This document shows positions 1,223 to 37,442 of a stretch of DNA of 37,442 nucleotides, in pieces. The notes beneath the pieces are model-generated. The model had not been told where the DNA came from, made no database searches, and saw only the letters and a program-made list of their open reading frames with translations. Origin of the DNA: Rhizobium sp. Q54 (GTDB taxonomy: Bacteria; Pseudomonadota; Alphaproteobacteria; Rhizobiales; Aestuariivirgaceae); contig CAMDBX010000035.1 in the NCBI GenBank assembly GCA_945889445.1, positions 1 to 37,442 of the forward strand, given 5' to 3'. Within the stretch, counting starts at the first letter, position 1. Every line of letters starts with the position of its first letter. Both the position numbers and the translations under genes were made by a program.

Positions 1223-1279
1223 CGCAGGCCTACAGACGCTTAGGCTCAGGCGAAAAAACAAACAGGAAGGATTGAAAAG

Positions 1280-1576: not shown

Positions 1577-1603
1577 ACCGACTTAACGGCCTAGCCGCAG
1601 GCC

Positions 1604-1620: not shown

Positions 1621-1650
1621 TTAAACCTCCGGCTATCGCTCGGCGCTAGG

Positions 1651-5759: not shown

Positions 5760-8700
5760 ATGGCTCGCCAGCATCTTCATTCATCACTCAACCAGCCGCC
5801 TGCGAAGCCGATCGCGCTAGTCGGCATGGCCGGGCGTTTCGCGTCGGCACCGAACATTACCGCCTTTCAGCGGGCAATTCAGACCGGAGAGGGTCTTCTC
5901 TCGCCAACGCCCACAGGCCGCTTCACGTGGCTCCTCAAGCCGACGGGTAGCATGCAGCCGTCGGTAGGCGGCTTCCTACCCGACGTGGCGAGCTTCGACG
6001 CCGAAGCCTTTTCAATCGGCAAGCGCGAGGCCCTTCGGATGGACCCGCAGCTACGATTGCTGCTCGAGACCACGCTGGAGGCACTACAGGACGCCGGACT
6101 GAGGCCCCGAACGCTGCGTGGCAGCCAGACTTCAGTGTTTCTGGCAAATACACTGAACGACTGGTCCAACCGTCTGCGAAGCCAACCCAATGTCGAGCGC
6201 CTGAGGCTGGTCGACGTGGTACCGAGTCAGCTTGCGGCCAGGCTGTCGCGCAACTTCGACTTCCGTGGCTGTTCCGAAGTGATCAGCACCGCCTGCAGTG
6301 GCGGCCTTCACGCCGTGCACCGGGCCTGCCAGGCATTGCGCGAGGGCGAATGCGACATCGCCCTGGCCATGGGCGTGAACGTCATCCTATCGAGCGAAAG
6401 CTACATCGGTATGGCCCGCGCAGGAATGCTTGCCAGGGGTGACCGATCACCCGTGTTTCGGGGCAATACCAGCGGCTTCTTGCGAGGAGAAGGCGCGGGC
6501 GTTCTGGTACTGATGCGCGCTGATGACGCGGCTGCCGGCCGGCACGACGTGAAGGCTTTCATCCGCGGCTCTTCGTCTGGTCACAGCGGGGCTGGCGGGA
6601 CCTATAACGCGGCTGATGCAGAAATCCAGTCGCAGTCCGTCATCCGCGCGCTGCGCATGGCGGGTATCAAACCGCGCGACGTGGCCTATGTGGAACTTCA
6701 GGCCGCCGGAAACCTCGCGGAGGAATCCGCAGAGGTCGCGGTGATCCGCCAAGGCTTCAGGGCTGTGGCCGGAGACGAGTCAGACATGCCTTCCCGTATC
6801 AATGCTGGATGTCTCAAACCGATTACCGGCCACATGGAGGCCGCTTCCGGCATTGCCCAAGTCGCGAAGGTGATCTCGGTGCTGGGCAACGGCCAAGCGC
6901 CACCCCTGCGGGACCTCGACGAAAGACCGCAGGACTTGGCCGAACTTTGGCCTGCCTTGGTACTTGCACCGTATGGAGAAAGGCTATCCGCAGCTCCCGG
7001 TCAGTGCTGTGCGCTGATCAGCGGGCTGGGCTTTGGCGGCAACCACAGCCATCTGGTCGTTGAATTGCCCGAGCGGCGCACTCGAATTGCGCCAAAGTCG
7101 ACGAACGGCTTTGCATTTTTCCTCTCCACTCGCACTGGCGAGGGACTGACCGTTCTGCAGCAACGTCTCGCTCGGTTCCTGCATGAGACGCCCGATCTAT
7201 CAGCGGAAGACGTTGCCTACACCCTGCTCCTCGGTCGTGACGCCGGTGCTGAACGTGCCGTGTTCGTTGCTGACAATCTTGATATGCTTGCTGGTCAACT
7301 TGAATCGGGCGCGCCATTCGTGCAGGGCCGCGCTGCCGACATGCCGTTCGAATTCGGGGGCGACGAAGAAGACGGGTGCTGGCTGCGTTCTCACCTCCGG
7401 AGCGGCAACTGGCAAAAGCTGGCCACGCGGTGGTGTCAGGGTTTCAACTTTTCTTGGGACGGCGTCTCCGACGAACTGCCGGGCCGCCTCGTGACGCTGC
7501 CCCCCACACCCTTCATCCGGGACACCTACTGGCTTGAAGATGCCGCAACGCCAAGTGCGGCTCATTCAGCGCCTCCGACAGAGGAGCGCCAATCCGAAAT
7601 AGTTCTGCAGCCAAACACAAAGAATCTCTACTATCGAGACCTTCTTACGCAGGTCGTTGGAGATGGAGGCCGTGACCACTGGCACGACGACACGACGATC
7701 GCGGAACTTGGTCTCGACAGTCTTGCCGCTGCAGATCTTCGCGCCCGTCTCGCGGAGTTCAGCAGTAATGCGCCTCCCCGGTTGGTGGAGATTGTCGGCG
7801 CAGCGAACCTGCGCGCTCTCATCGCCCTCATGCCGGAGCCAACCGATCATGTGGTCGCTTCCATCTACACGGCGGATGAAGCCCATCGTTACGATCCCTT
7901 CCCGGCAACTGACATCCAGCTTGCCTATCTCATCGGCCGCGAGACGGTGCGCGACGGCGGCGGCTTCGGGTGCCAGATCTATTGGGAGTTCTCGCGCCCC
8001 CGCTTCGACATGGACCGACTTCACGAGGCATTGAGAAAGCTCATCGCACGGCACGACATGCTGCGTGCCGTCTTCATGCCGGATACTCGACAGAGGATAT
8101 TGCCGGCGAACAGCGACACAGTCGCTCCGCTGAAGACAGTCGACTGGTCGCACCTCGGGACCAATGCCCTGGAAGATGAGCGGCGCAAACTTGGGGAACA
8201 GCTTCTTGCCCGCAACTTTGACGCGGCTAAGTTTCCGCTGTTCGAAATGGCTGTTTCCCGCGGCCCTGAGGACGACCGGCTGCATTTCGCACTAGACCTC
8301 CTGATCGCGGATGGACCGAGCCTGTTCCACATGCTCGATGAATTGTCCCGCCTCTATGACGATGACGCAAGTGTCGAGGCTCCACCCGTTTTTCAATTCC
8401 GCGACTATGTGTTGGCCACGCAGGGGGAAAACGGCGCGGCGCGTGCTTACTGGGAGGGACGTCTGGACAATCTGCCAGCATCGCCGCGCCTCCCGTTCCT
8501 GCCAGGCAAGCCGGGAACTGCCAACTTTTGTCGGTTCGAGAAAGTGCTGTCACCAGCGGACTGGAAGGATTTTCAGCATCATGCTGCCGCCCACGGGCTG
8601 ACTATGAACGCGGCACTGATCGCGGCCTTCGCCCAAGGCCTCTCCCACTGGTCGGTCGAACCCGCTTTCTGTGTCAACGTCACGCTGGCTGCGCGCCAGC

Positions 8701-11700
8701 CGCTGCATCCCGACGTCAACAGACTCATCGGCGACTTTACCCGCAACGTGCTACTGTCAGTGCGGCCGGCAGAGGGTGCAAGCTTCTCCGAACATACACG
8801 CAACATCGCCACGCAACTTCTCGCGGACTGCGAGCATGGCGATTTCTCGGCGGTTAACGTGATGCGACTGCTCTCGCAGAAGCGGCGCCGGCCGGTCAGC
8901 ATGCCGATCGTGTTCACCTCGCTCCTTGGCTATGGCGGCGTCCTCAAGCGGCCGGTGCGAATCGACGCAATCGGCAACTATGTGCGTGGCGCAACCCGCA
9001 CCCCGCAGGTGTTGCTCGATGCCCAGGCGCTCGAGGCGTCAGATGGACTTCACATCTCGTGGGATGTCATGGAGGGCATGCTCGCCCCTGACCTGCTCAA
9101 CGACATGTTTCACGGCTTCACCCTATCTGTCGAGCAATTGGCGCGGGACAAGACGTCTTGGGAAGCGCCTGTCGCGAACCTGGCGTCTCCGCAATCCCTG
9201 CGGCATGCCAACTCCACGGCGGCGAGACTGCCACTTGAACCCATCTTCGCGGGCATCCTGCGCCAGGCTGCGCTGGAGCCTGGCCGCCTAGCGGTGGTGG
9301 CCGCGGATCGGCGCCTCACCTTCGGTGACCTCGCAGGCGAGGCACGTTGCCTCGCACAGCGACTCACTGAACATGGCACTCAGCTCGGAGACCTCGTCGC
9401 GGTGGTGGCCCCCAAGGGCTGGCGGCAGATCGTGGCCGTACTCGCGATCAGCATGAGCGGTGCCGCCTATGTGCCGGTGGAATTGCCGATGCCGGCGGAT
9501 CGCATCGCACAAGTGCTGACACGTGCCGGAACGAAACTCGCGCTCGTCCATGGAGCACCAGCAGGCACGGCGTGGCCCTGCCCCGTCGTCGACACCTGGG
9601 ACTTGGATACCAAGACGCCATTCGAACCCGTTTCGGTCGGCGCGACCGACCTAGCCTATGTCATTTACACCTCCGGTTCCACGGGCACGCCAAAGGGCGT
9701 GGCGCTCGAACATGGCGCAGTGTCGAACACTCTCCACAGCGTGAACAATGCCTTTGCCATAGGCCAGAACGACTGCGTACTGGGGGTTTCCTCCCTGGCC
9801 TTCGACTTGTCAGTCTGGGATGTATTCGGGATGCTCGGAGCCGGCGGCCGGCTGGTCCTGCCAGATCCGCAATCTCTCCGAGACCCAGACCACCTCGCCG
9901 ACCTTTGTCGCCGCGAGGCGGTTACGGTGTGGAACTCGACCCCCTCCTATTTGAAGCTGGTGGTCGAGGCACCCGGGATCGCATTGCCGCTCTCTCTCAG
10001 ACTGTTGATGCTCTCGGGCGACTGGATTCCACTGGAACTGGCACGCTTCCTGCGGCAACATCACCGTTCTGCGCGGCTGGTGAGCCTCGGCGGCGCAACC
10101 GAGGCTGCGATCTGGTCGATCTGGCACGAGGTTGAAGAGGTTGCGGAACATTGGCGCAGTGTTCCCTATGGCAAGGCCATGCCGAACCAGCGCTTCCACG
10201 TGCTCGACGAGTCCCTGAGCCCAACCGCCTTGGGCGAAGTCGGCCAATTGCATATCGCAGGCAGCGGTCTTGCGCGCGGCTACTGGCGTGATGAGACACA
10301 GACCGGAGCGAGTTTCATCCGCCACCCACTCACCGGCGAGCGGCTCTATCGCACGGGCGACTATGGCCGCGTACTGGACGACGGAAGCATCGAGTTTCTG
10401 GGCCGTCGCGACGCCCAGGTAAAGGTTGGTGGACACCGCATCGAATTGGGCGAGGTCGAGGCTGCGCTAGCAGAGTTGGCAGATGATCTCAAAGTGAGCG
10501 ACGGCATTGCCTTCACATTCACTGACGCATCTGGAAATCAGCGCCTCGGTCTTTGCTACCGCTCCGCCAACAGAACCGTAGAGGCAGATGTGCGGCGAGC
10601 GCTCTCTGCGCGGCTCCCGGGCTACATGACACCCTCAGCAATCATGCTGCTCGGTGAAATTCCCCTGACCGACAACGGCAAGGTCAACCGTAAGGCCCTT
10701 GCCGCTTTGGCGCGGCAGCAGTCTGGCGCACCATCTGTGTCCGAGAAACTCGGTGCGCTCCTTTCCGATGACCGCATGCTCAAGGATAGCCAAGAGAGGA
10801 GCGCCTTCGTCGCGGCTCACCACGGAAACCGCCGCGACCTCGGCATCGCACCTGCCCTGGAACTAACGATACATGAAGGTGTCGCAGCCACCGTCCGGCG
10901 CTCGACACGCAGCTTCGCCGCATCTACCCCAGTTGACGATGTCATAGCTGCCCTGCTGGCGCCTCTTCGCGAGATCGGAGCCACAGACGGTGCACACCGC
11001 GAGTATGCTTCGGCAGGTTCCAGCTATGCCGTGCAGGCTTATGTTATTCGAAGGTCAGATAATCCAGCGCACCATATGCTGTTCTACTACGACCCGGTGC
11101 AGCATCGGTTAGTCCAGACCGGTGAAGTGAGTCACGACATTGCCGATCTTCACGCACCGGCCAACCGGGCCATGGCGGCTTCAGCGCCGCTCACCATCCT
11201 GCTAGTCGGTGACCGACGCGCCATCGAGCCCCTCTATGGCAATCTGTCAGACGACATGATGCGGATCGAGGCTGGGGCCATGGCCCAGCTACTCTCCAAC
11301 TCAGCTACCAAGCTCGACCTCGGCCACTGTGCCGTCGGCTGGATGGATATTTCACCGCTGAGAGAGGCATTGAGGCTGTCGCAGGAGCATGTTTTCATCC
11401 ATGCCATGGTGGCCGGGGATGCTACCCGGAGTACCAAACCGAAAGTCGTACAGGCCGCGCAACAGCAGAAAGCAGAGACAAGCACAACGAAAGACACAGT
11501 GCGCGCGGCCTGGTCCAGCGTGCTAGGGCATGACAACTTTGCCGATGACGCCAGCTTCTTCGAAGTGGGCGGTGACTCGTTCATGGCCGTAACTCTGCAG
11601 GCAAAGCTCGCCGAAATCTTCACGCCGGCACCTTCGGTGACGGATCTCTTCCGGCACCCGACTGTTGTTGATCTTTCCAACCATCTTGAAGGCGGTGGCA

Positions 11701-29800: not shown

Positions 29801-32800
29801 ACATCAGGGCCGCTGCTGCCATTCGCCGCCGCTCGCGTGGCGATGATGGGTCGCCTCGACATGGCATGTCATGTACTGGCAAGGCAGTCCGGACCCAAAA
29901 AAATGGACCTTACGGTTCTGGGACATGCCGGAGAAGTTCTCGCCGAGGTCGAGGGCTTCCTAGCACGACCTGTCGCTCCGTCAGACAATCTGATCATCGC
30001 GGTTCCCGGCTGGCAGCAGGACACCAAAATGCCGACCGGCGCGCTCGATGTCGGAACCGTTCTGATCCTTCACAATGGCAACGTGCCCGAAGTCGTTGCC
30101 GGGCTGAAGGCACAGCACGCCGGCGCAACGGAGCGACTGATCGGAGAAGGCAACGACGTTGAACCCGTCTCCCATTCGCGCATCTATGTGCTCGATCCAG
30201 CGGCGAAAGGCCTGAAGCCGGCTTTCCACCTCGCCCGGTCCATCGCCAATGCCATCAAGGGACCGGCGTCACTTGTAGTAGCAAGCACTGGCACGGCCGA
30301 AAGCGACCCCGCGCGGGCGGGGGCGGCGGCACTGTTCCTGAGCCTCGGACACGAATGGAAGTCCGGCCGCCTGATCGTGGTGGACGTCGCAAAGGGCGAA
30401 ACCCAGGTAGCCGAGCGCCTGGTACGCGAGACGTCAGAGCCCGGTCGACCCACACACAGGCGCTATGATCGCGGCATGACACTGCTGCGCAGCTTTACGC
30501 CAGCAAGTCTACCGAAGGCCAAGGCACTCGAGCCCGGTGCCTATCTCATCATTGGCGGTGCAGGCGGGCTCGGCAGTGCCCTGGCGCGCGAGATCGCACA
30601 CACACCGTACACCAGCATCATCTTGACAGGACGGCGCGAAGAGGATGCCGGTATCACCCGGCTGGTCACAGATTTGCGTCGGACTGGGGCTGACGCCAGC
30701 TACATGCAACTCGACGCGTCAGATGATGGCGCCATGCTGGAATTACTCGACGTGCTGCATGCGCGGCACGGGGCGCTAGCCGGTGTAATTCACTCCGCAA
30801 TCGTGCTGGAAAACGGTCCGCTCTCGACAATGACGGATGAATGCTTCGAGGCGGCCCTCACCCCGAAGCTCGCTGCCATGACGTGGATGGCGCAGGCCTT
30901 CATACACAACGCGCCAGGTTTCATCGCAGTGTTCTCATCGCTCATCGGTTTCTCTGGCGGGGCAGGACAGGCTAATTATGCTGCGGCCTCTGCCGCCCTC
31001 GACGCAGCCGCAGACGGCCTGCGGCATGCACTCGCCTCCCCTGTCAAGGTGATTGATTGGGGGTTCTGGGGCGATACCGGGATCGTGGCAACGGCGTCGG
31101 AACGCGCACGGCTGGCCAACCAGGGCATGGGCGCACTCGGTACGGCCGAAGGGATCGAGTTGTTCCGCCAAGCCCTCGCCTCACAGCATGACCGGCTGGT
31201 GATCACCCGCAAGCAGTCCGCGGCAATGCCGCAAGCGGCACGGTCAGAACCTGCAAAAGCAGAACCGCCAAGAGCTGACGTACGGCAGTGGCTGACCGAT
31301 ATCATCGCCGAGATCCTTGGCCGCCGGGGTGAAGCCCTGCCGGTCGATGAGCCGTTTGCTATCCTTGGCATCGACAGTCTCGTCAACACCCAGATCCTGC
31401 GCGAGCTTGAAACGCATCTCGGGCCACTGCCCCGCACATTGCTGTTCGAGTTCGGCACGATCTCTGCCCTGGCATCCGAGATCGCTGCCCACCACAGCAC
31501 CAAGATAAGCGCAGTAAAGCAGGACCCTGAACAACAGGAGCATGTAAAGCCTGTGAACACCTCGGACATCCACGACGATGACGTAGCAATCATCGGCCTC
31601 GCCTGCCGCTTCCCTGGGGCCGCAACGCCAGAAGACTTCTGGACGATGATCCGCAATGCCGAACCTGCCTTTGGTGAGGTCCCGCCCGACCGTTGGCAGG
31701 CACCGGCTGGCGCCCGTGGAGCCTTCCTCGACCGCGTTGATCTGTTCGACCCCCTCCACTTCTCGATCAGCTACCGGGAAGCCGCAGCGATGGATCCACA
31801 GGAAAGGCTGTTCCTGGAGGTCGCGTGGCAGACCCTCGAGGACGCGGCCTACACACGCGCAGCAATTCGCGAGCGAGCACGCGCCGCCACAGGGCGCGAT
31901 GTCGGCGTCTATGTCGGCGTCATGAATGGCGCCTTCCAACTCAACGCCATGCGCAGCCAGCCCGATGGCAGTCCGATTCAAGCTATAGCGCCCTATTGGT
32001 CGATCGCAAACCGCGTTAGCTGGCTGTTTGACTTCCATGGGCCGAGCATGGCGGTAGACACGGCCTGCTCATCCTCGGCGTCCGCACTGCATCTCGCCTG
32101 CGAGGCACTACGGCGCGGCGAGATCGGTGCGGCACTCGTCGGTGGCGTGTCCTTGCTGCTGCACCCGCGCCAGCTTGACACCATGAACGCCATGCAAATG
32201 ATTTCTCCCTCCGGACACTGCCTACCCTTCTGCAAGGGCGCGGATGGTTTCCTTCCCGGCGAGGGCGTTGGCGCTGTTCTGCTTCGCCCGCTGCGAGATG
32301 CCCGCGCTGATCGCGACCGAATCCTCGGAATCATACGCGGCAGCGCCATGAATGCCGGCGGTCGCACCAGCGGCTACACGGTACCGAGCCCCGCTGCCCA
32401 GGCCGACGTCGTCGCCCGAGCCATCGCTAATGCCGGGATCGATCCCGGCAGCATCAGCTATGTCGAGGCGCATGGAACTGGCACCGCGCTTGGCGACCCA
32501 ATCGAGATCGAAGGGCTGAATCGCTCTCTGGGTAAGGGCGATGACGCTCCGCGCTGTGCTGTGGGCACGGTCAAGGCGTTGGTGGGCCATCTCGAATCGG
32601 CTGCCGCCATGGCGGGTCTCACCCGCATCCTCATGCAGTTCAAGCATGGCGAAATTGCCCCGACACCGCTGGGCGGTCCGGTAAGCGACGGCCTGCCCCT
32701 CGCCCAATCCCGCATCGAACTGCTGTCTGCCGCGCGGCCATGGAAGGGATTGCGGCGTGCCGGACTTTCCTCTTTCGGCGCAGGTGGCGTGAATGTGCAT

Positions 32801-35575
32801 CTCGTTATCGACGCACCCGACGAGACTGCGCCACCAGTCATCGAACCACGCATGCAGATCGTGCCACTCTCCGCGCGCAGCGCAGCACAACTGCGCGAGA
32901 TGGCCGCGCACCTCAGAGATAAGGTCAGTAGTACGAGGCCCAATTTCGCATCCCTCGCCTACACACTACAGGCCGGACGCGAGGCATTTGCGCAGCGACT
33001 GGCCGTGCTCGCCAGCACCGATGATGAATTAGTAACCGCGCTCGACAACTATCTCGCTGGGCGGCCCGCAGCCACCCTGCATCTGACCGGAGTGCCTGCA
33101 GCGGGCGGTCAAGGTGTCCTCGATGCAGTTGCAGCGGAGTGGGTGACCGGTGCGGCCGTCGACTGGATGAAACTCTGGCAGGGTCCAAGACCAACTCGGA
33201 TAAGCCTGCCCGGTTATGCCTTTGCGCGAGAACGCCATTGGCCTGCCGGTCTTGGATCGCAGCAGCCGATTGCGCGACCAACCGCATCTGCGCCGCTGCA
33301 TCCCCTCATTGGCACCGCCGTCCCATCGCTCAAGGGCGCCTGCTTCACGCTCCGCCTCTCGACCGAAGACCCGATCCTCGATGGCCATCGTGTTGATGGA
33401 ACTCCGCTGCTGCCTGGCATGGCTATCCCGGAGATCATTCGAGCTGCGCTAGGGATCACGCAGGTCTCGAATGTCACGGGGATATCCAACGTCGCTTGGC
33501 TCGCACCGATTCCTGCAGGCACCGAGGCGAAGTTGCTCATCACCGAAGCCTCCAACGGAATGAGCTTCGAGATATCTTCCGGAGCGAAGAAGCTGGTTTC
33601 AGGACTCGTCAGCCAGTCCCCCGAGAAGCGCCAGAAGCTCCGAGTGGACACCGAAACGCTCGGAGCCCCGCTCGCCGGAGCCGAGATTTATGCCCGAATG
33701 GCGCTGCTCGGTGTGGATTATCGCGGTGCATTCCGCGGGCTCAAGACACTGCGGGCAAATGCTCAGCAAGCGATGGCCGATATCGTGGCGCCCGTCGCAG
33801 TGCCGGGCCTCGCCTGGAATCCAGTACTTCTGGACATCGCTGCGCAAGGGATGATGGGCCTTCTCGGTGCATTGGGAGAGGCCTCTCCTTTCATGCCGTT
33901 TCTCGCCGACAGTATCAACGTTCTGGCACCGCTGGAGGGCGCAGCCAAGGTGCTGATCGAACGACGCCCGTCCGCTACCAATATTGCCGCAGACATTGAG
34001 ATCGTCGACAGCACGGACAAGGTGCTCGTCCGCATCGACAATTTCCAGATGCGTCCGCGTCATGAGGTACCACCTAAGAACAATGTGAAGACCGATTTAC
34101 AGAACCCTCTTGAAAGTCTCGACCATTTGGCGGCAGTTCGCCTGATTGCGCAATGGCACAAGGCTGGCGTCTTCAACGGCGAAGAACTCAGTCTTGATGT
34201 CGTGTTGAAGCGGCTGAGCGCGGATCCGCAACACAAGCGACTTATAGCTGCAGCACTCGATCTCTTTATGCGTCGGGGTTGGATAACGACAAAGGACGGC
34301 ACACTACGCGTCACTGCAGAGGCACTTGCCGAGGCGCGCGACGAGTTGCGGTTCCAGCAAGAGCTTCTACGTGCCGTCCCGTCACTTGAACCACATGTCG
34401 AGCTTCTGGACCGCTGCATGGCGGCCTTCCCTGGCCTGATGTCAGGTTCTGTACCCGCAACGGATGTATTCTTCCCGGGCGGTTCGATGGAGCTTCTTAG
34501 CAAGGTCTATGCTGGGGACGCGAATGCCACCCAGTTGCATGCCGCTGCGGCCGAACTGGTGGTCCGGCAAGCAGCTAGATTGACCGAACCGCCGAGAGTT
34601 CTCGAGATCGGTGCTGGCACCGGGGGAACGACCGTACATGTCCTCGAGGCGTTGAGGAAGGTTGGGCGCTCATGTGAGTACCTCTTCACGGACCTGTCGC
34701 CACGCTTCCTGAAAGAGGCACAGCGGCGCTTTGAGGGCGAAGGCGTCACTATCCGCACCGCCGTGCTCGACATCTCGCGTGAACCGACGGAACAGGGACT
34801 TGGTAGTGAGGCCTTTGATATTATCGTTGCTTCCAATGTGTTGCATGCGACGTCGGACATGCGTGTGACCATGGCACATTGCGTGTCCTTGCTGGCCCCC
34901 GGCGGGCGGGTTGTCATCAACGAAATGACCGCCGCCCGCGACTATGCGACGCTCACATTCGGGCTGCTCAAAGGCTGGTGGCTTTCATCTGATCCCGAGA
35001 TAAGGTTGCCGCACGCCCCGTTGCTCTCTCTGGCCCAGTGGCGTGATCTTCTGACGGCGGCGGGACTGCAAATTGATGAGGTTCGTGTTCCGGAGGGCCT
35101 CGCCGCCGACGCCGAGGTACCTCAGGCCGTCATGGTTGGCGTGAAGGCAGCACCCGTTGCCGCGACAAAGCCCCTCACGAAGGACATCCAGTCCATCGAG
35201 CGGATCGTGATGGAGGTGGTTGCGCAGGTCTTCGAAATGCCGGTAGAGATCGTCGCAAGGGGTGGAATCCTGAGTTTCAGCGAACTGGGCGGGGATTCTC
35301 TCCTTTCCGCCGAACTCGCAACGCAACTTGGTCGCCAACTAGGCGTTCCATTGAAGACCACGGCGATCTTCAACTTCCCGACCATTCCACTCCTCGCCCA
35401 GCATATCGCGGAGGAATACGCGGCCCCGGACGGGCTTTCTCCGCCCGTGTCGGAACCGCTTGCCGCGCACGTGGAGCCACCGACGCCAAAGGCCATGGAT
35501 GACCTCTTTGCAGCTTTGGAGAGTGGCGAAATAGACCTCGAAGAAGCGCTCCGCCGCGCGGAGGCCATGGCATGA
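11813..35575 (+). CDS. Giant trans-AT polyketide synthase, seven KS domains
   Basis: An uninterrupted 7920-residue frame beginning at ATG 11813 (ATGA overlap with the NRPS stop; GGAGGAAGG at 11802-11810). Domain order: KS(Cys to Ser)-ACP / KS-ACP-ACP / KS-DH-KR-cMT-ACP / KS-MT-ACP / KS-KR-ACP / KS-DH-KR-ACP / KS-DH-cMT-ACP / C-terminal docking helix. Phosphopantetheine serines are at 601, 1212, 1324, 3047, 4071, 5181, 6522 and 7829. Every KS is followed by the short flanking linker that ends in a PxYxFxxxRxW-like motif, and no AT (GHSxG) is present, so malonyl units must be supplied in trans. There is no ER and no thioesterase. Extension is therefore expected to continue on the downstream PKS, whose gene overlaps by 4 bp. 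Modules are listed separately. Confidence 0.97.
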   Translation: MSNARDLEGLVAIIGIGCRLPGVDGPDAFFSALAEGRDLVTRGGASGDGQVAAFGRIDGIEDFDADFFRFIPRHAELLAPEQRLLLECGWWALEDAGYAPGEVDASVGVYVAAAKPSYCQGPLRHAGEWLVADSALGQDYAATRLSYKLNLRGPSLSIQTASSASLVAINMACESLLSGQCDMALAGGASVSLPQDSYRYDPSLMLAKDGFCRPFDAAASGAVPGNGAALVLLKPLEAALRDGDSITAVICAGAVNNDGAHKVDFYAPAQEGQERVIREALAMAGLSPSDIGYIEAHGTGTPLGDPIELAALARVFSHETVGDGTVAIGSVKSSIGHLHTAAGVTGLVKAALMLREKTLCPSLHYAAPNPHSVLADRSAFRVITSTAPWPEPPLGAPRRAGVSSFGIGGTNAHVILEEPPYFTARNITPGWHIVPISARTAKGLEQARHRLAAWLEAHPAVEVADIAFTLQRGRVHFAHRHALVVADIADLSAALRGTPISGVPTDLADMAQAFERGDSVRFPTIPGARRIRLPVTVFDRRRFWIEQQTVDATPRLLRGPVADKSAGSMLAEVQKVIASQLGRGIDSIDPAGNFAELGIESVLAPLLAAALSETTGREVRPFDFYDYPTPMRLAEELQLREASVVSSVTTSAHAVPEAIAIIGMAGRFPGAENLDQFWEVIRGNRVTTGLLPAGLWPGSETAHGGLIPGYQDFDASFFRVSPREARLIDPQQRVFLEECWKALDDAGLHADGVAGRRIGVYAGAQASDYPVEGGESHSTIGTSLAVLAARVAYALDLKGPALTVDTACSSALTAVHLAVQALRAGECEAALAGGVSISVPYPRGHGFFGDAGLLSPHGSCRPFCENADGIVPSDGVGVVVLKRLGDAMRDGDRISGIIRASGMNQDGQTNGITAPNGPAQRDLIRSLHHDFAIDPARIAFVECHGTGTKLGDPIELEALSASLGHQDCAIGSVKANIGHTLPAAGIAGLLKLLLAMEARTLPPDISAGNGHGPFRRLARPQPWPDDRPLAAVSAFGFGGTNAHVILEAPRQPPSAESSGTPLPFVLTAPDASALKQRASDLLNWILAGGVSAGLQELSWTLSRRAPFACRAAFVARDREGLLAGLEAIADGRTVAPSGPLPEVRRSNLLRLPPHRFQQQRFWLTLEAAPVAAQLPEPSGPIEEIRRLTAELLMLEPQDVTSDSGFAALGLDSILAAELAQRINASLGTRIKAIDFYNNPTPKRLCDCIAAPVRPVASATPAAPPDMASASAVVAAAAHGPATVTALPPDHDIRGAVISALASALYVEPEQITGSAGFADLGLDSILAVEVAKTLATSLSIPTRAMDFYEAGTLDRLAALLSSRQPASASAAPAEPPAIIASPSESATAESTGLGDSDAIAIIGIAGRFPGAADIQAFWEVLSTGRDCVTEIPTERWALEDFFDPQKGNGSRSYSRWGGFIDGVDRFDPLHFRISPREAELMDPQERLFLTSVQAALDDAACLPQALGGGKVGVFAGVMYGEWQLLAADASTPDSFIAAHAPYWSIANRVSYCFGWTGPSMALDSACSSALTALHLACESLRRGECDAAVAGGVNLSLHPRKYLGLSAGRFAASDGRCRSFGAGGDGYVPGEGVGTVVLKRLADALADGDHIHGVVRGSAINHGGTASGYSVPQSEAQAQVIRTALRRAGIDASGIGYVEAHGTGTSLGDPIELEGLKRAFGAGAQGIALGSVKSNIGHLEAAAGVAALAKVLLQMQHRKLAPSLHADPPNPVLEIDGSGFAVVRKLADWPRRNNSPLRAGISSFGAGGSNAHVIIEEAPAQSERTAAPVGPWCIPLSAPSQDQLARFAGDLANFIRRVLESPWLVPDVAHTLSQGRTVHAVRHAIMAQTKTDMLAALEGLAAGSNLPPTVPPLPHVTAWLGGGAVPLPPVPGARRIALPPLPLNEERYWLPQPPKPPSAPRPLRQARESVAEKTVLSLETTLSWSLSDPVLSDHRVRGRPVLPAAALLIALARQVGDDVSFSDVSFITPLAADAAGVTVTIVRGEDGLFTVLHEGRTAVRGRMTNAKQPQGAPSAAAGDLPDVSGLYERFESMGTNYGFTYRRIRSAHISDGLAVAQLKSEGPPEGLLDAGFHAAALLVPERGAHLPFHIESLWLGTRIGEARRASLQPRHDSALLGVDMALLDEAGEVVAMLQGLSLRPVAGSTKQAPENLALLQPVWRDEPLDGVVRPQGDVAIIAGPEAADLVAALAVAATPGRLISLSLPTLRHDPAAISKALASVREIIFIAGQGPGNDELSAAENGGVVPLLSLAQGLARLGATQKRVLRLVTFGVQATGFEPSVSPWQAAAIGLAKVAGLELPGLSCALIDLPPAPSPADLPAMATAILAEPATEQRIEIALRNGRRLVQRVERTELPASAFNPFRPWGIHVIVGGARGIGLQIACHMARRAHARVLLIGRSGPASAEAAIAAVSAAGGEAIYRSADLLDGPAVAQAVADARRLWGPINGVIHSALVLDDRSLLRLDEASLRRALEPKARGAVNLAAAVAQDSLDYFAFFSSANAVFGNAGQANYVAGCRFKDAFAAHLRTSKSIPALSINWGYWGEVGVVADDAMRDRLARQGILPISNAEGIGAFERAICAGVHQIMPVAGTAEAFTRLGVTAPAQNREDVEEAALTAIEAEAAVTLQLQLAGMGFVPGKALSLAEWARHCRVSPGCMRLFEACLAILARRGLAQLHNGAWSAMAPAAQLSENTDELPAHRALLARALACLPEVLGGKMTGVAALMPGGSLELVGKIYTDSAVVRRLNGSIAAAVLEIAQRRPAGHPLRIIEIGGGTASATAAILPRLAAAAPDSDYVFTDISPAFLPPAQQRFGGLLAGFTTARLDISAASATVPLSPADIVVASNVIHATADLRRSLANCGSLLKKGGLLVLNEATSTRDFATLTFGLTEGWWRATDLESREPHGPAAPARQWRTLLAEAGFTNIRMEPEAGNDPQVIITAAAARRSEASSDGLVTHVSNLLCAALKLKPGTVDPHADFGVYGLESVMALEIIAALESDFGTLPKTLLFESNSATSLAEWLTANKPDVARQFGNHSHTAPATALGQAQLAMDDIAIIALAGRYPGARTPAELWSLLSEGRNAITEVPPERWNHAEHFDASGDRDDKAQTRFGGFVSGIDQFDAGLFNISPAEARAIDPMERQFIEVVWELFENAGHTPERLKRSAVNDRGGDIGVFVGVMSQTYEQLATEIWAKGHYTGAFSSHSSIANRVSYLFDLTGPSTAVDTACSSSLSAIHMAAEAIRRGDCRAAIAGGVNLLMHPLHHILMSAYRVLSPDDKTRAFGAGGKGFVVGEGIGAILLRPLADAQRDGDPILAVLKGSAVNTCGRTSSYSAPSVFAQERVIRAAFTRADLEPASISYIEAHGTGTELGDPVEVRALTLAFAGAKPAGSCAIGSIKPNIGHLEAAAGVAGVSKVLLQLQHQALAPSLHALPPNPNINFAETPFRVQTSLAEWRSDGGPRRAGISSFGLGGANAHVILEEALPAPPSDADDGTPQLITISARNEERLRLQLTRLRDAIHSEPGYSLRDIAWTLQAGRQSLARRWACVVANRAELLGTIDSWLAGTANRAMQGRQSGPASLLASADPEAVARHWVAGGQFSPDALRGQHRARIVPLPNYPFEPRRFWLGEGDAMSRGSISASRAEQRAISQTPQLEPVGDYYDATIPVSGDELTEAYFSLAPLHNPPPGFSWTRTVFEPDHDPLATQALLDGQRALREELLAGIDVTSRPLRVLDFGCGAGTDLIRLARGNPQLNGYGRTISAEHGRVADSRVRLAELSNRITIETGDSAGQPFPGSFDLIIGIEVAHHIENKKALLANLKASLAPGGRIALADCLSPRVDAPSPATGSWTLSEANYARLMAEAGLAITRAVDCSAGIANCLTGDDIDATMRLLLARGMPPAKLELVRRVHDGWLNFGKALASGSLRYLFLQFEASNAPQDWLLAANRAALTNVLPFGKRAVKQQSPQVRAPAASPRDGLTLVRSALAKVIGVAPEDVDADAAFVEQGVDSLAGLRFTDELARRLGAELGTNLIYDHPTPTLLAEAIAAMPSMSTPEAPVATSVELTSLPENAVAVVGLATRLPGAADQSQFWDVLRNGTDCVSEVPRNRWDSAAHWSSDPEDRAKTYGKWGGFIDGHDRFDAAFFGITPREASYMDPQQRVFLETAWHALEDAGMADERLRGSSAGVYVGLSGDEYSELMRSGGVSPDAYLMLGNAGSILAARLSYLLDLKGPALTIDTACSSSLVAAHLAAEAIRRGEIDLAVAGGVSLYLSEWPFKQMSRAGMLSPTGKCRSFASGADGIVPAEGAAVVVLKTLARAIADRDQIYGVILASDMNQDGRSNGITAPSAAAQAQLIGQVLDRAGIDCETVEMLEAHGTGTRIGDPIEAAGLVAAFAPRTGKVGFCSLGTVKSNIGHTTAASGAAGLAKALLALRNELIPKSLHAESNNPLLKLDGSPFALAREPQTWPRRNGAPRRAAISSFGFSGTNAHMIIEEAPALSGTAPAEGDRLVTLSARSQAALTRAKAALAQYLQDHQSHSLASLAYTLNLRRRHEPFRAAFVVGSEPELREALRNGQSLEDRGGSAHLVGIARAYLAGDALAVDLLDEGSAVRTIPLPGYCFEKERHWFAATAEDASPVPCDSVRLHAPRWREVAAGPSAKPPGGVLLAFVNSTDERDALRGMWTGHFIAAFPETADKLVSLIRDSGHRPDHVVDLWPLGATRGLPPGAQEAQTLQRLQSIRAAVGQAPIRVLFAHPDDSASGFSGLIASVPQALPGWAVSTLALDNHAGAKPAGTVIAELSQNPAEVRIAGDRRLERWPEAMSQSSAARPVGEPGVILISGGLGSIGQKLAGRVAATGIKIALLGRSALTTEGEAFLSTLRARGAFVRYWRTDVSDAASVRSAVKDIRDVFGPLTAVHHLAGTMGSKPLSTKDADEARAVLSAKIDGAINLDAATRDDPLKAFVLHGSLGSIVGDFGQGDYAMANAFLETFAEVRSARGPGRSLAICWPLWQDGGMRPSSAATRLITGTSGLGAITDAEAFDALDQALAVDEPVVMVAKGALAELVRAQRETSELVLPRPSAPAAAASPATLIELAAGVVKLDPNALDPAASLLDQGFDSITLKEFASLLSHQLSHDLSPTLFYQHGSLNEVADYLSKEGITLGNAASQQPTVVSQPSVAPRADDGAIAIIGMAGRLPGAPDLDSFWDVLRDGRDVVGPPGNERPGYSNARDLLAGYITDVDAFDAAFFQISPGEAAIMDPQQRLFLEACWHAFEHAGLDATALAGSRTGVFVGAQGADYAEVLRGNDAPQVITGIAHSAIANRVSYWLDLRGPSLVVDTACASGLAALHRAATALRSGECKLAIAGAVNLLLSPASRKMIENMGALSPDGRCKSFSVRADGYGRGEGVVALVLKPLVAAEADGDRVLGVIRGSAEGHAGHAVSLTAPNPQAQAELLRTAWTEAGISPDDIGYIEAHGTGTELGDPAEVDGIKAAVGATAAEGTIGLGSVKSNIGHLEPASGLAAVVKALLAFRHRVWPATLHCDEPNPLLKLAGSALRLVRQAENYPTGQSLVGISAFGFTGAMAHVVLAPPPPRDPAPKPSGQQVLPLSARSTAALRGLAAAWAETLESPDAPGLAAAARLLQLGRAPLEYRLVVVAADVAAAAGLLRAWLADAKPRREHGLVLSNGDVPRRPFRALLAASPHPVAPLSPEAMAAAFLQQERISWPTAACSLPETPVPLYPFERARHWAKSAHEAPPKAKGINWAAFPDLAQHRVGEQALMPASATAAIIAQALGLSSIDLRDVSWLRPVEVGAPHSLHFMHEGHQQRFEIRSADGTPAVCGLICPERPDRRLPIDVAALCERPDETVDGTELYRGIASSGLQLGPAFSSITSLWRKGSTVLAALSSPEDGTRSDASVLDMAAQAGSLLLADETSGPLLPFAAARVAMMGRLDMACHVLARQSGPKKMDLTVLGHAGEVLAEVEGFLARPVAPSDNLIIAVPGWQQDTKMPTGALDVGTVLILHNGNVPEVVAGLKAQHAGATERLIGEGNDVEPVSHSRIYVLDPAAKGLKPAFHLARSIANAIKGPASLVVASTGTAESDPARAGAAALFLSLGHEWKSGRLIVVDVAKGETQVAERLVRETSEPGRPTHRRYDRGMTLLRSFTPASLPKAKALEPGAYLIIGGAGGLGSALAREIAHTPYTSIILTGRREEDAGITRLVTDLRRTGADASYMQLDASDDGAMLELLDVLHARHGALAGVIHSAIVLENGPLSTMTDECFEAALTPKLAAMTWMAQAFIHNAPGFIAVFSSLIGFSGGAGQANYAAASAALDAAADGLRHALASPVKVIDWGFWGDTGIVATASERARLANQGMGALGTAEGIELFRQALASQHDRLVITRKQSAAMPQAARSEPAKAEPPRADVRQWLTDIIAEILGRRGEALPVDEPFAILGIDSLVNTQILRELETHLGPLPRTLLFEFGTISALASEIAAHHSTKISAVKQDPEQQEHVKPVNTSDIHDDDVAIIGLACRFPGAATPEDFWTMIRNAEPAFGEVPPDRWQAPAGARGAFLDRVDLFDPLHFSISYREAAAMDPQERLFLEVAWQTLEDAAYTRAAIRERARAATGRDVGVYVGVMNGAFQLNAMRSQPDGSPIQAIAPYWSIANRVSWLFDFHGPSMAVDTACSSSASALHLACEALRRGEIGAALVGGVSLLLHPRQLDTMNAMQMISPSGHCLPFCKGADGFLPGEGVGAVLLRPLRDARADRDRILGIIRGSAMNAGGRTSGYTVPSPAAQADVVARAIANAGIDPGSISYVEAHGTGTALGDPIEIEGLNRSLGKGDDAPRCAVGTVKALVGHLESAAAMAGLTRILMQFKHGEIAPTPLGGPVSDGLPLAQSRIELLSAARPWKGLRRAGLSSFGAGGVNVHLVIDAPDETAPPVIEPRMQIVPLSARSAAQLREMAAHLRDKVSSTRPNFASLAYTLQAGREAFAQRLAVLASTDDELVTALDNYLAGRPAATLHLTGVPAAGGQGVLDAVAAEWVTGAAVDWMKLWQGPRPTRISLPGYAFARERHWPAGLGSQQPIARPTASAPLHPLIGTAVPSLKGACFTLRLSTEDPILDGHRVDGTPLLPGMAIPEIIRAALGITQVSNVTGISNVAWLAPIPAGTEAKLLITEASNGMSFEISSGAKKLVSGLVSQSPEKRQKLRVDTETLGAPLAGAEIYARMALLGVDYRGAFRGLKTLRANAQQAMADIVAPVAVPGLAWNPVLLDIAAQGMMGLLGALGEASPFMPFLADSINVLAPLEGAAKVLIERRPSATNIAADIEIVDSTDKVLVRIDNFQMRPRHEVPPKNNVKTDLQNPLESLDHLAAVRLIAQWHKAGVFNGEELSLDVVLKRLSADPQHKRLIAAALDLFMRRGWITTKDGTLRVTAEALAEARDELRFQQELLRAVPSLEPHVELLDRCMAAFPGLMSGSVPATDVFFPGGSMELLSKVYAGDANATQLHAAAAELVVRQAARLTEPPRVLEIGAGTGGTTVHVLEALRKVGRSCEYLFTDLSPRFLKEAQRRFEGEGVTIRTAVLDISREPTEQGLGSEAFDIIVASNVLHATSDMRVTMAHCVSLLAPGGRVVINEMTAARDYATLTFGLLKGWWLSSDPEIRLPHAPLLSLAQWRDLLTAAGLQIDEVRVPEGLAADAEVPQAVMVGVKAAPVAATKPLTKDIQSIERIVMEVVAQVFEMPVEIVARGGILSFSELGGDSLLSAELATQLGRQLGVPLKTTAIFNFPTIPLLAQHIAEEYAAPDGLSPPVSEPLAAHVEPPTPKAMDDLFAALESGEIDLEEALRRAEAMA
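11837..13730 (+). other. PKS module 1: KS with Cys to Ser, then ACP
   Basis: The KS active-site segment reads QTASSAS, putting Ser162 where the nucleophilic Cys belongs, while both histidines are kept (HGTGT at His297; IGHLHTAAG at His337). The ACP serine is Ser601 in GIESV rather than GxDS. A KS without Cys cannot form the normal thioester intermediate, so this module should not elongate. It could pass the thiazolyl chain through (possibly via Ser or by skipping) or, like KSQ loading domains, decarboxylate malonyl-ACP. Confidence 0.85.
13781..15905 (+). other. PKS module 2: KS-ACP-ACP
   Basis: The KS has an intact catalytic set (Cys808 in DTACSSA, His944 in CHGTGT, NIGHTLPAAG). It is followed only by two tandem carrier domains (Ser1212 and Ser1324, both in GLDSIL), with no reductive domain. 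The expected product is a beta-keto unit. Tandem ACPs are common where trans-AT lines add beta-branches, but the required HMG-CoA-synthase-type genes are not in this window and the flanking Trp seen in many beta-branching ACPs is absent. Confidence 0.85.
16001..21100 (+). other. PKS module 3: KS-DH-KR-cMT-ACP
   Basis: KS: Cys1566 in DSACSSA, HGTGT and NIGHLEAAAG intact. DH: HxxxGxxxxP is H1994-RVRG-RPVLP, with D2129 and H2133 of the DxxxH motif. KR: GGARGIG (2432-2438), catalytic Tyr2572 in GQANY, and an LDD motif (2515-2517) pointing to a B-type reductase. C-methyltransferase: SAM motif EIGGG (2831-2835) and NVIHATADLR. ACP: Ser3047. Expected product is an alpha-methyl alpha,beta-unsaturated thioester. 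Confidence 0.92.
21149..24140 (+). other. PKS module 4: KS-MT-ACP, O-methyltransferase-like, no KR
   Basis: KS intact (Cys3289 in DTACSSS). The methyltransferase (about 22960-23840) is of a different family from the two cMT domains: SAM motif DFGCGAG (3795-3801), PGFSWTRTVFEP upstream, GYGRTISAEHG and GIEVAHHIENK. This is the type found in PKS O-methyltransferase domains that make methyl ethers, including enol ethers; C-methylation cannot be excluded. ACP Ser4071 is in GVDSL. Without a KR the acceptor would be the enol form of a beta-ketoacyl chain, giving a beta-methoxy-enoyl unit. Confidence 0.8.
24206..27470 (+). other. PKS module 5: KS-KR-ACP
   Basis: KS intact (Cys4302 in DTACSSS, HGTGT, NIGHTTAASG). 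The KR has GGLGSIG (4902-4908) and Tyr5042 in GQGDYAMAN; it lacks the LDD motif of B-type reductases, so the opposite (A-type) alcohol is the better guess. ACP Ser5181 is in GFDSI with the LSPTLFYQH helix typical of trans-AT carriers. Expected product is a beta-hydroxy unit. Confidence 0.9.
27548..31500 (+). other. PKS module 6: KS-DH(variant)-KR-ACP
   Basis: KS has Cys5403 in DTACASG (variant of TACSSS), with HGTGT and NIGHLEPASG intact. The DH first motif is H5836-RVGEQALMP: the His and final Pro are in place but the Gly has moved from +4 to +3 and Glu sits at +4. The second motif D5983-MAA-Q5987 is normal. KR: GGAGGLG (6248-6254), Tyr6389 in GQANY, and LEN where LDD would be. ACP Ser6522 in GIDSL. 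The product is an enoyl unit if the DH works, otherwise a beta-hydroxy unit. Confidence 0.85.
31577..35430 (+). other. PKS module 7: KS-DH-cMT-ACP without KR
   Basis: KS intact (Cys6752 in DTACSSS, HGTGT, VGHLESAAA). DH: H7192-RVDG-TPLLP and D7341-IAA-Q7345, both normal. The C-methyltransferase carries EIGAGTGGT (7598-7606) and NVLHATSDMR. ACP Ser7829 is in GGDSL. No ketoreductase is present between DH and cMT, so the seemingly sound DH has no beta-hydroxyl from its own module; a KR acting in trans, action on another intermediate, or an alpha-methyl beta-keto product are the options. Confidence 0.88.
35495..35572 (+). other. C-terminal docking helix of the giant PKS
   Basis: The last 26 residues form an amphipathic, Glu-rich helix pair with the pattern LxxLxxGxIxxxxAxxxL (LFAALESGEIDLEEALRR). 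The next protein carries a matching pattern near its N-terminus. Such short helical pairs join consecutive trans-AT PKS proteins, so the order giant PKS then next PKS is well supported. Confidence 0.65.
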
Positions 35576-37442
35576 CCAAGGACAGCAGTTCAGGTGTAAC
35601 CCTGAAGTCGGCAAGCATGGCACAGGAGTTGTTGCGCAGAGTGGCCAATGGCGAACTCTCCGCAAAGAGCGCCAAGGCTCTGCTCAGCAGGCCCGCCGAA
35701 GAACGGCAGTTCCAAGCGAGCGATCGCGCCGTCGCGGTCATCGGCATGGCGGGACGCTTCCCGGGGGCCGACGGGCTTGATGCCTTCTGGATGATGTTGA
35801 CGGAGTCGCGCTCTGCGGTGCGCGCCGGGCCATTGGGCCGCTGGGGCGAGGCACGATACGCCGGCGGCTGGCTGGATGATATTTCGAGTTTCGATCATGG
35901 CTTCTTCGGCATCTCGCGGCGCGAGGCCGAGGTCATGGATCCGCAGCAGCTGTTGTTCCTCGAAATGGCGTGGTCGGCGCTGGAGAATGCCGCTTATGCG
36001 GAGCGCGACCTCTCGGGCCGCAAGGTAGGAGTCTTTGTGGGTGCCGGCGCGGGCGACTTTGCCCGTCACCTTATGGAGCGAGGTGCGGAGCCAGACGGGC
36101 TTTCCTTCATGGGCAACAGCAATGCGATACTCGCCGGACGCATTGCCTATCTTCTGAACCTGCGTGGTCCCTGCCTCACCATCGACACCGCGTGCTCCTC
36201 TTCGCTTACCGCTATTCATTTGGCCTGCGACGCCCTGAACAGCGGATCCGCCGACATGGCTATTGCCGGCGGCGTCTGCGTGCTGCCCACCTCGACATTT
36301 GTGCAAGCCGCCACGCGCGCCGGCATGCTCTCCCGTAGCGGTCAGTGCAGGCCCTTCGATGCTGATGCCGATGGCTTCGTACCTGGCGAGGCAGCGGGAG
36401 CGCTGGTCTTGAAGCCCCTCGACCGGGCCATTGCCGACAAGGACTACATCTGGGGCGTCATCGAAGGCTCGGGAACCAACCAGGATGGCCGGACCAATGG
36501 TATCACCGCGCCAAGCGCTGTGGCCCAGGCCGACCTTCTGCAGCAGGTCTATCGCCGCGCTAGGGTGGAGCCCTCGAGCATCAGCTATGTTGAGGCGCAT
36601 GGAACTGGGACGCGCCTCGGCGATCCGATCGAGGTCGAGGCGCTGACGCGCGTCTTCCGTCGGAGCTCGCACGAGACGGGCGTCTGCGCCCTCGGCTCCG
36701 TCAAGGCATCGGTCGGTCACACTATGAGTGCAGCTGGCGTCGTCGGCATGATCAAGGTGTTGCTCGCGATGAAGCATCGCATGATCCCCGCATCGCTGAA
36801 CATGGCGCGGCCGAATCCGGCTTGCGAACTGGGAACGTCTCCCTTCACAGTCAACACGGAGATGCGTCACTGGCAGGCGCGCGAGGGAGTGCGACGGGCC
36901 GTGGTGAGTGGCTTCGGTTTCTCCGGCAGCAATGCCCACATCGTGCTGCGCGAGGCACCCGCAACGGAAGCCTCCGCAAGCCAGTCAGGCTCTCCACGAC
37001 TTTTCCTTCTCTCGGCCCGCTCGCGGACCGCGCTGGCGCAAGTCGCAAGCAACCTTGCCCAATATGTCGTGGCGCAGGCGAATGAATTGGACCTTGATGC
37101 CCTGAGCTGGAGCCTCGCCGCCGGCCGCAGCCACCACGGGGAACGGGCCGCGATCATCGCCTCTTCGTGTGATCAACTCTCCGCCGGGCTGTCGCGCGTG
37201 GCTGCAGGGGCGCCTTCGCAGGCACCGGCCGGACAGAGTCCGTTGCATGCACTGGCCGAGCCTTATCTGCAAGGCCGGAATATTGACCCGACGGAGCTGG
37301 TTAAGCCCGACGCGAGGCGTCGCACCGCCCTTCCTCCATATCCCTTCGAACGCGTATTCTGCGGCCTCCGGCCCGCCACGCGCAAGCGACTGCAGCAGGG
37401 GCTACATCCGCTGGTCGACCGCTACCTGGCCGACGGCTCGCT
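35572..37442 (+). CDS. Next trans-AT PKS, N-terminal part (docking-KS-DH...)
   Basis: ATG 35572 overlaps the previous stop (ATGA) with GGAG at 35560-35563; 623 complete codons are visible before the window ends. Residues 16-38 hold a docking-like helix pattern (LLRRVANGELSAKSAKALL). The KS follows (about 52-460) with Cys208 in DTACSSS, His343 in HGTGT and His383 in VGHTMSAAG, so it should condense. After the post-KS linker (LPPYPFERVF) the sequence GLHPLVDRYL marks the first residues of a DH domain, showing that this module is at least KS-DH. No AT is present. The rest of the protein, and presumably the tailoring, trans-AT and release functions, lie to the right of the window. Confidence 0.95.
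   Translation, partial: MTKDSSSGVTLKSASMAQELLRRVANGELSAKSAKALLSRPAEERQFQASDRAVAVIGMAGRFPGADGLDAFWMMLTESRSAVRAGPLGRWGEARYAGGWLDDISSFDHGFFGISRREAEVMDPQQLLFLEMAWSALENAAYAERDLSGRKVGVFVGAGAGDFARHLMERGAEPDGLSFMGNSNAILAGRIAYLLNLRGPCLTIDTACSSSLTAIHLACDALNSGSADMAIAGGVCVLPTSTFVQAATRAGMLSRSGQCRPFDADADGFVPGEAAGALVLKPLDRAIADKDYIWGVIEGSGTNQDGRTNGITAPSAVAQADLLQQVYRRARVEPSSISYVEAHGTGTRLGDPIEVEALTRVFRRSSHETGVCALGSVKASVGHTMSAAGVVGMIKVLLAMKHRMIPASLNMARPNPACELGTSPFTVNTEMRHWQAREGVRRAVVSGFGFSGSNAHIVLREAPATEASASQSGSPRLFLLSARSRTALAQVASNLAQYVVAQANELDLDALSWSLAAGRSHHGERAAIIASSCDQLSAGLSRVAAGAPSQAPAGQSPLHALAEPYLQGRNIDPTELVKPDARRRTALPPYPFERVFCGLRPATRKRLQQGLHPLVDRYLADGS
35617..35685 (+). other. N-terminal docking helix of the next PKS
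   Basis: Residues 16-38 of the downstream PKS show a short amphipathic helix pair around the turn ANGELS. The LxxxxxGxLxxxxAxxLL pattern parallels the C-terminal helix of the giant PKS. I infer that the two form the protein-protein junction. Confidence 0.5.

Follow-up and report, generated by a model that had tools for sequence, protein, structure and literature searches.

A conserved trans-AT NRPS-PKS assembly line in an alphaproteobacterium, predicted to form a thiazole-capped polyketide

The stretch of DNA from Rhizobium sp. Q54 analysed here (the window; 37,442 nucleotides) carries a large set of polyketide synthase (PKS) genes that runs off its right end, which raises the question of what this assembly line makes and whether it is complete, conserved and already described. 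A preliminary description had presented it as an apparently undescribed thiazole-containing trans-acyltransferase (trans-AT) pathway. On the basis of the observed domain order, active-site motifs, conservation and co-location, we consider it highly probable that the window and a second contig encode a conserved trans-AT line of mixed non-ribosomal peptide synthetase (NRPS) and PKS type, making a thiazole-capped, methylated, beta-branched and unsaturated polyketide; every substrate and product step given below is a prediction.

Organisation and conservation of the assembly line

The window is an entire contig (C35) of a 4.94-Mb genome assembled in 262 contigs. Three PKS open reading frames (ORFs), pksA, pksB and pksC, extend from position 5760 to the contig end, each overlapping its neighbour by 4 bp. 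The rest of the pathway is found on a second contig of this genome, C61. The end of C35 and the start of C61 both fall inside one dehydratase (DH) domain, DH8 of PksC, with about three codons missing between them as judged by alignment to the uninterrupted PksC of Siccirubricoccus deserti and Methylobacterium aquaticum. Because of this alignment, and because modular ketosynthase (KS) domains occur only on C35 and C61, C61 was taken as the continuation of C35; of 16 KS matches in the genome, nine are on C35, four on C61 and three stand singly elsewhere (frames of 425–456 aa). The sequence to the right of the window thus gives the core an end, in the form of modules 8–11 and a thioesterase (TE). 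The parts of the line that follow PksA are:

11813..35575, + strand: PksB, modules 1–7, 7920 aa
13781..15901, + strand: module 2, KS-ACP-ACP, candidate beta-branch site
16001..21067, + strand: module 3, KS-DH-KR-cMT-ACP (predicted alpha-methyl enoyl)
21149..24142, + strand: module 4, KS-oMT-ACP, KR-less (putative beta-methoxy enoyl); MT matches the StiE/StiD structures at E 1e-38
24206..27472, + strand: module 5, KS-KR-ACP (predicted beta-hydroxy); the following KS6 groups with KSs after KR-ACP modules
27551..31492, + strand: module 6, KS-DH-KR-ACP (predicted enoyl), DH motif slightly degenerate
31577..35416, + strand: module 7, KS-DH-cMT-ACP, KR-less (alpha-methyl, probably beta-keto), C-MT of DisA/CurJ type
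35572..37442, + strand: N-terminus of PksC, with KS8 (35725-36996) and the first residues of DH8; the ORF is open at the contig end (35572-37440) and goes on in C61
C61: remainder of module 8, DH-KR-cMT-ACP
C61: module 9, KS-KR-ACP
C61: module 10, KS-ACP-ACP plus a further ACP whose Ser is replaced by His
C61: module 11, KS-DH-KR-ACP-TE

The ORFs and their Pfam domains agree with the earlier outline of a Cy-A(Cys)-Ox-PCP unit (heterocyclisation, cysteine-specific adenylation, oxidase and peptidyl carrier protein domains), followed by a 7920-residue AT-less PKS and a further PKS. PksB contains seven KSs, eight acyl carrier proteins (ACPs; one tandem pair), three ketoreductases (KRs), three DHs and three methyltransferases (MTs), including the previously noted tandem-ACP unit (module 2), two C-methylations within the window (modules 3 and 7, the MT of module 7 being of the DisA/CurJ C-MT type) and a KR-less MT module (module 4, with an MT of the StiD/StiE O-MT type). 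Module 7 also has no KR, so that the earlier count of one such module is too low; in both modules a KR was not found in any of the three orthologues. The line is AT-less, and hence of the trans-AT type, as the AT model PF00698 has no match within the modules and its only matches in the genome are on contig C22 and in a discrete AT on C61. DH3, DH7, DH8 and DH11 carry both DH motifs, and DH6 reads HRVGEQALMP. The LDD-type KR motif, which is linked to the stereochemistry of the KR product, is absent from KR5 and KR9, and is present or variant in KR3 (LDD), KR6 (LEN), KR8 (LND) and KR11 (MDD).

Orthologous clusters were identified through the HMGS (hydroxymethylglutaryl-CoA synthase homologue) of the beta-branching cassette on C61. 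In a profile search of genome contigs with an HMGS alignment, for which the best 80 of 167 relatives were kept (79 loci), the top two were those of S. deserti and M. aquaticum, each 73% identical, followed by the next at 59%. PksA alone, used as query in the genome-contig search, retrieved no relative, and no plasmid matched PksA or the last PksC module at 60% identity or more. The whole line lies on one contig in S. deserti SYSU D8009 (NZ_JACOMF010000024), and is spread over three contigs in M. aquaticum DSM 16371. In both species the PksA, PksB and PksC orthologues are collinear with those of the window (48–59% identity), and the cassette, AT, enoylreductase (ER) and ECH3 (one of three enoyl-CoA hydratase-like proteins, ECH1–3) are 49–81% identical. 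The clusters share the three PKS proteins, the domain order, a serine in KS1, the loss of a histidine in KS0, and the cassette, AT, ER and ECH3 genes. They differ from the window in that S. deserti has an extra ACP in module 4 and its efflux pump downstream, and M. aquaticum has an extra ACP in module 7 and a KS10 that was not seen.

This conservation bears on whether the locus is a degenerate, non-producing relic, as might be thought from the catalytic residues missing in KS0 and KS1, the third ACP of module 10 without its Ser and the fragmented draft state of the genome. The large ORFs are all open, however, and the same KS residues are altered in all three orthologues at 48–59% identity, which implies that the changes are old and have been kept; we regard a relic as very improbable.

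The occurrence of the cluster is sporadic. Of the 37 genomes of the genus one has HMGS (E <= 1e-20), as do 12 of the 397 of the order, the own genome included in both, with the next best in the order at 57%. At E <= 1e-100 two of the 298 genomes drawn from the M. aquaticum family have it, and two of the 299 drawn from the S. deserti family, the starting genome being counted in each. S. deserti belongs to the Acetobacterales and M. aquaticum to the Hyphomicrobiales. The cluster family is conserved and patchily distributed, a pattern that would be compatible with horizontal spread. A complete and conserved pathway of this kind in the culturable M. aquaticum DSM 16371 offers a direct route to a possibly new alphaproteobacterial thiazole polyketide.

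Ketosynthases on either side of the thiazole module

PksA and the first module of PksB contain the following domains:

5760..11816, + strand: PksA, KS0-ACP-Cy-A(Cys)-Ox-PCP, 2018 aa; orthologues 53.0% and 51.8% identical
5805..7094, + strand: KS0; Cys present (TACSGG), and Gln314 at the position of the HGTGT His by motif alignment
7614..7829, + strand: ACP of the putative loading didomain (GLDSL)
7890..9209, + strand: Cy domain (PF00668), DLLIADGPS motif in all three orthologues
9255..10724, + strand: A domain (PF00501/TIGR01733), pocket read by eye as DLWNLSLIWK, presumably cysteine; residues kept in the three orthologues
10725..11444, + strand: FMN oxidase (Ox) of nitroreductase type, putatively thiazoline to thiazole (PF00881, E 7e-13), aligned in the orthologues
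11481..11693, + strand: PCP (PF00550)
11840..13105, + strand: KS1 of module 1; Ser162 (codon 12296-12298) replaces the catalytic Cys, both His kept
13511-13729, + strand: ACP of module 1

The thiazole-forming module holds up as previously described: all its features (Cy with the DxxxxD motif, A, Ox and PCP) are present, the Cy motif and A pocket are kept in all three orthologues and Ox and PCP could be aligned. The assignment of the A pocket to cysteine uses the pocket numbering and specificity code that we take to apply. Cy-A-Ox-PCP would condense the starter with cysteine, and cyclise and oxidise the product to a 2-substituted thiazole-4-carbonyl unit.

PksA had been read as starting at Cy, which needs correction, as Cy is preceded by a KS-ACP didomain. 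The catalytic Cys of its KS0 is retained, and the His of the HGTGT motif is lost in all three orthologues (LQAAG, LQAAG and VQAGG at the site); KS0 is probably a loading or relay KS incapable of condensation. Since none of the three clusters has an upstream module, the KS0-ACP didomain probably loads the starter. An acyl starter would be attached there, acetyl being a guess by analogy with epothilone, in which likewise a KS-type loading unit feeds Cy-A-Ox-PCP to give a 2-substituted thiazole. The epothilone synthase differs in that it is of cis-AT type, has Tyr in place of Cys in its loading KS and has no beta-branching. A missing module ahead of PksA, as suggested by the extra module of the sister type described below, was also considered. 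It was set aside for this family, since each of the three clusters begins with PksA and the window genome has no modular KS outside C35 and C61.

At the other side of the thiazole module, PksB opens with a separate KS-ACP module, which had been counted together with module 2 as one unit. Its KS1 has Ser for Cys in all three orthologues, with both catalytic His residues retained. KS domains were placed in a tree with 226 references, whose labels were taken from the module upstream of each KS and not from known products (56 unlabelled); an earlier tree had 136 references and a third contained six more KSs. Low-scoring KSs and those no longer than about 330 aa were removed before counting, and three loci (L045, L046 and L068; orthologues or a duplicate) were left out of the larger trees. 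KS1 groups with 12 references (support 0.999), of which five are labelled, all following an A domain, and seven are unlabelled. Ser occurs only once among the 226 references, in another clade, and the HGTGT His is altered in 19 of them. This single case, from a trans-AT cluster of Serratia marcescens MSU97 (L111, ~2154, minus strand) that we take to be of oocydin type, is a natural Ser-KS (IDTASSSSL) with both His motifs intact.

The same arrangement recurs in clusters of a sister type, found in Methylosinus trichosporium OB3b (plasmid pOB3b1), Acetobacteraceae UBA6159 and genome G1398, in which the open frame after KS-ACP-Cy-A-PCP begins with KS(Ser)-ACP (stretches L217:7426-50000 (pOB3b1), L178:2400-13870 and L210-L213 (G1398:C2)). 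Their HMGS is 54–58% identical to that of the window genome. The sister type differs by an extra module before KS-ACP-Cy and by more, otherwise ordered modules; a one-sequence model found no Ox in it. One protein of the OB3b cluster is annotated as a MupA/Atu3671-family luciferase-like monooxygenase. In an IQ-TREE analysis a nine-member clade (bootstrap 99) takes in all six Ser-KSs, which separate into two subclades (100 each). The sister (100) of the subclade of OB3b, UBA6159 and G1398 is a Cys-containing KS of Azospirillum, in whose upstream stretch no Cy-A was seen. The node that separates these four from the KSs of the window, S. deserti and M. aquaticum has a bootstrap of only 58. With Ser in two subclades, one of them sister to a Cys-KS, either two parallel changes or one change with reversals would be needed. 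KS1-like matches (E <= 1e-90) are present in 47 of 299 genomes from the S. deserti family; among 30 KSs taken from such matches at 30 loci, Ser was found in two (S. deserti and G1398).

Since module 1 has only an ACP beside its KS, and KS1 groups with acceptors of NRPS products, KS1(Ser)-ACP most likely relays the thiazolyl chain without extension. An active KS1 is retained as a rival because its intact His residues speak against a dead domain: Ser might act as acyl acceptor, so that module 1 extends and leaves a ketone beside the thiazole, or KS1 might decarboxylate malonyl-ACP, as KS-Ser loading domains do in nystatin-type synthases, with PksB starting its own chain. Both His are kept in all six Ser-KS1 domains, unlike in the KS0s, and in all six cases KS1-ACP opens a new open frame. 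On the other hand, KS1 groups with KSs that receive NRPS products and a second chain begun there would leave the PksA product unused; we find an active KS1 possible, if rather less probable than not.

Returning to the relay, we tentatively suggest that Ser-KSs directly after a Cys-activating Cy-A are a functional class of their own. Its origin would lie in two parallel replacements of Cys by Ser, in ACP-only modules that pass an azol(in)yl chain, unextended or through an unrecognised Ser chemistry, from the NRPS to the PKS part. If so, the thiazole module of the present family would be bracketed by two KSs incapable of the usual condensation. A Ser-KS with both His, found in two subclades at an NRPS-to-PKS junction, offers a clean test of what a KS without Cys can do, and the behaviour of such KSs bears on product prediction from trans-AT lines. 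Orphan trans-AT lines being common, the cluster by itself would attract moderate interest, which the recurrence of a Ser-KS at this junction increases.

Beta-branching and the predicted product

PksC is followed on C61 by genes for a decarboxylating-type KS, HMGS, ECH1, ECH2, a discrete AT, a PfaD-family ER and ECH3. The donor ACP, decarboxylating KS, HMGS, ECH1 and ECH2 form a complete beta-branching cassette. The donor-type ACP (GANSID) is not a separate gene, being fused behind the TE of PksC as the last 76 residues of the C61 frame that ends at 14835, as also in both orthologues. The closest NCBIfam models of the cassette are PRK07103, PRK07112, PRK07110 and PRK07117, which we take to be the PksF, PksH, PksI and AcpK types; only PRK07110 scores above its cut-off, and the donor-type ACP, closest to PRK07117, reaches 64.4 bits, below the cut-off of 79. 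The cassette KS has no Cys (GSHFSSG), and the nearest solved structures of HMGS are CurD and PksG. Two other trans-acting enzymes were assigned by their models:

C61:18794-19681: discrete malonyl AT, above the cut-off of the fabD model and kept in both orthologues
C61: PfaD-type trans-ER, 582.6 bits with TIGR02814 against a cut-off of 449.25

In ECH3, residues D, E and D align with the catalytic acidic residues of Delta3,5-Delta2,4-dienoyl-CoA isomerase (1dci/2vre); its best solved match is EchA21, annotated as an enoyl-CoA hydratase. Among 385 genomes of the class, ECH3 was found at E <= 1e-70 only in the own genome.

As the cassette is complete, at least one beta-branch is expected. Candidate sites were examined by scoring the ACPs with a model of 79 reference tandem ACPs against one of 81 single ACPs. 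The four tandem ACPs of modules 2 and 10 favour the tandem model by +2.6 to +9.6 bits; the donor ACP (+7.4), the ACP of module 8 (+0.7) and the PCP (+0.5) are also positive, and the other ten are negative.

The KS trees partly support the incoming units expected from the collinear order. KS3 groups with seven references (0.951), six after DH-KR-ACP and one after ACP-ACP, and in the third tree is found among nine (six after DH-KR-ACP, two after KR-ACP and one after ACP-ACP; 0.949). KS6 and KS10 group with five references (0.925), three following KR-ACP and two unlabelled, and KS7 with three (0.984), two after DH-KR-MT-ACP and one after ACP. The 136-reference tree agrees for KS1, KS6 and KS10. 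The placements of KS1, KS3, KS6, KS7 and KS10 are thus compatible with the expected units. KS5 and, KS10 apart, KS8–11 are mixed: KS8, KS9 and KS11 share six references (0.785), three after MT-ACP, two after DH-KR-MT-ACP-KR and one unlabelled. The core proposed earlier from collinearity stands in part, with KS3, KS6, KS7 and KS10 compatible and its start to be corrected for the loading KS-ACP and the Ser-KS module.

We propose the following route. After the thiazole, the units added by modules 2–7 would be beta-branched, alpha-methyl enoyl, beta-methoxy enoyl, beta-hydroxy, enoyl and alpha-methyl in turn; modules 8 and 9 would contribute alpha-methyl enoyl and beta-hydroxy units, module 10 a second tandem-ACP unit and module 11 an enoyl. 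As no KR was found for module 4 in the three orthologues, an enol ether is its simplest product. The single discrete AT would supply malonyl units in trans, and the donor-type ACP, decarboxylating-type KS, HMGS, ECH1 and ECH2 would introduce a beta-methyl branch. The PfaD-type trans-ER and the dienoyl-isomerase-like ECH3 may adjust double bonds, in that the ER could saturate one alkene and ECH3 shift a diene. The predicted product would begin with a (2-alkyl)thiazol-4-yl group, followed by a C-methyl-branched, alpha-methyl, methoxy-substituted triene and a hydroxyl; the remainder would comprise an enone and an alkene, each with an alpha-methyl, another hydroxyl and a second diene acid, potentially branched. 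Release by the TE would yield an acid or a lactone, the latter 16-membered if the hydroxyl set by KR5 attacks.

Several observations weigh against parts of this route. A Trp at +6 is found in none of the four candidate beta-branch ACPs, compared to 61 of the 79 reference tandem ACPs, and is likewise absent from all four of S. deserti and from the two that could be read in M. aquaticum. KS5 groups with four references (0.934), two after MT-ACP and two after ACP-ACP; the two MT-ACP cases have an MT closest to the O-MT of module 4. Their context differs, with a KR-ACP module ahead and a KS that reads HGAGT and IGS in place of HGTGT and IGH, so that these neighbours may take a beta-methoxy rather than an enol-ether chain. 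KS2 and KS4 fall only in large mixed clades. The oxidation pattern might deviate from that given here, in view of the altered HxxxG of DH6 and the lack of KR in modules 4 and 7. As for the first steps, the tree groups KS0 with a single KS located after an azole-forming module (0.984) and, less strongly, with three further KSs, for which we have no explanation; none of the three clusters showed a loading enzyme ahead of PksA; and the Ser-KS1 retains two His residues that a mere relay would not need. The tandem ACPs without Trp probe how far this residue can be trusted as a flag of beta-branching.

Known pathways and neighbouring genes

A known thiazole trans-AT pathway in a new host, of the patellazole, pateamine or leinamycin type, would share Cys-thiazole formation, the trans-AT mode and beta-branching with the window cluster. 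The HMGS of Endolissoclinum is only 48–49% identical, compared to 73% for the two orthologues, and we give such an identity hardly any weight. The leinamycin family is characterised by a DUF-SH sulfur-insertion domain and a discrete starter A domain; neither turned up in Pfam scans, which included no DUF-SH model. Patellazole (ptz) is reported to involve six PKS genes ptzA-F, a discrete Ox, two P450s and two ATs (PMC3851785), and pateamine a glycine start, a doubled thiazole module and two chains (PMC7157528). Identity with patellazole was rejected as the window cluster has three PKS genes, an in-line Ox and one discrete AT, with no P450 among the cluster proteins scanned, and identity with pateamine on account of the glycine starter, doubled thiazole domains and two chains of the latter; the order of genes contradicts both.

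The nearest solved relatives of the module 4 MT are the StiD and StiE O-methyltransferases of stigmatellin, a cis-AT pathway. No described cluster with the present domain order was found in the literature searched or among the clusters compared, which included no library of characterised clusters. The term 'undescribed' can be kept to that extent, with the qualification that the same order exists in S. deserti and M. aquaticum, for whose clusters no description was found in the literature searched. In the part of one report consulted, S. deserti is named among strains with a hybrid NRPS-PKS cluster, without a description or a statement of which cluster is meant (PMC8776678).

Two genes directly upstream of pksA encode an efflux pump of the resistance-nodulation-division (RND) type:

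1651..2682, + strand: HlyD/AcrA-type periplasmic adaptor of an RND pump (PF16576/PF13437); a 45% identical homologue lies before PksA in M. aquaticum
2702..5758, + strand: AcrB-type RND efflux pump (PF00873, E 1e-260); a 62% homologue lies before PksA in M. aquaticum

The AcrB-type gene stops 1 base before the pksA start. The AcrAB-type pair is located upstream of PksA in the window and in M. aquaticum, and downstream of the line in S. deserti. A role in export or self-protection is likely, and the pump may export the product. In S. deserti a piece of an AcrB-like frame is also seen before PksA (G421:C157 reversed, about 5.3–6.2 kb), in addition to the full downstream pair.

Beyond ECH3, at C61:21873-25326 (minus strand), are genes for a GNAT protein, an aminotransferase and a 427-aa protein with an HATPase match below the cut-off; none of the three was matched (E <= 1e-10) in the sequence retrieved for the S. 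deserti and M. aquaticum loci. At the left edge of the window (1-2000, with an ABC1-kinase gene) the G+C content is 0.55, compared to 0.61–0.67 in the PKS genes.

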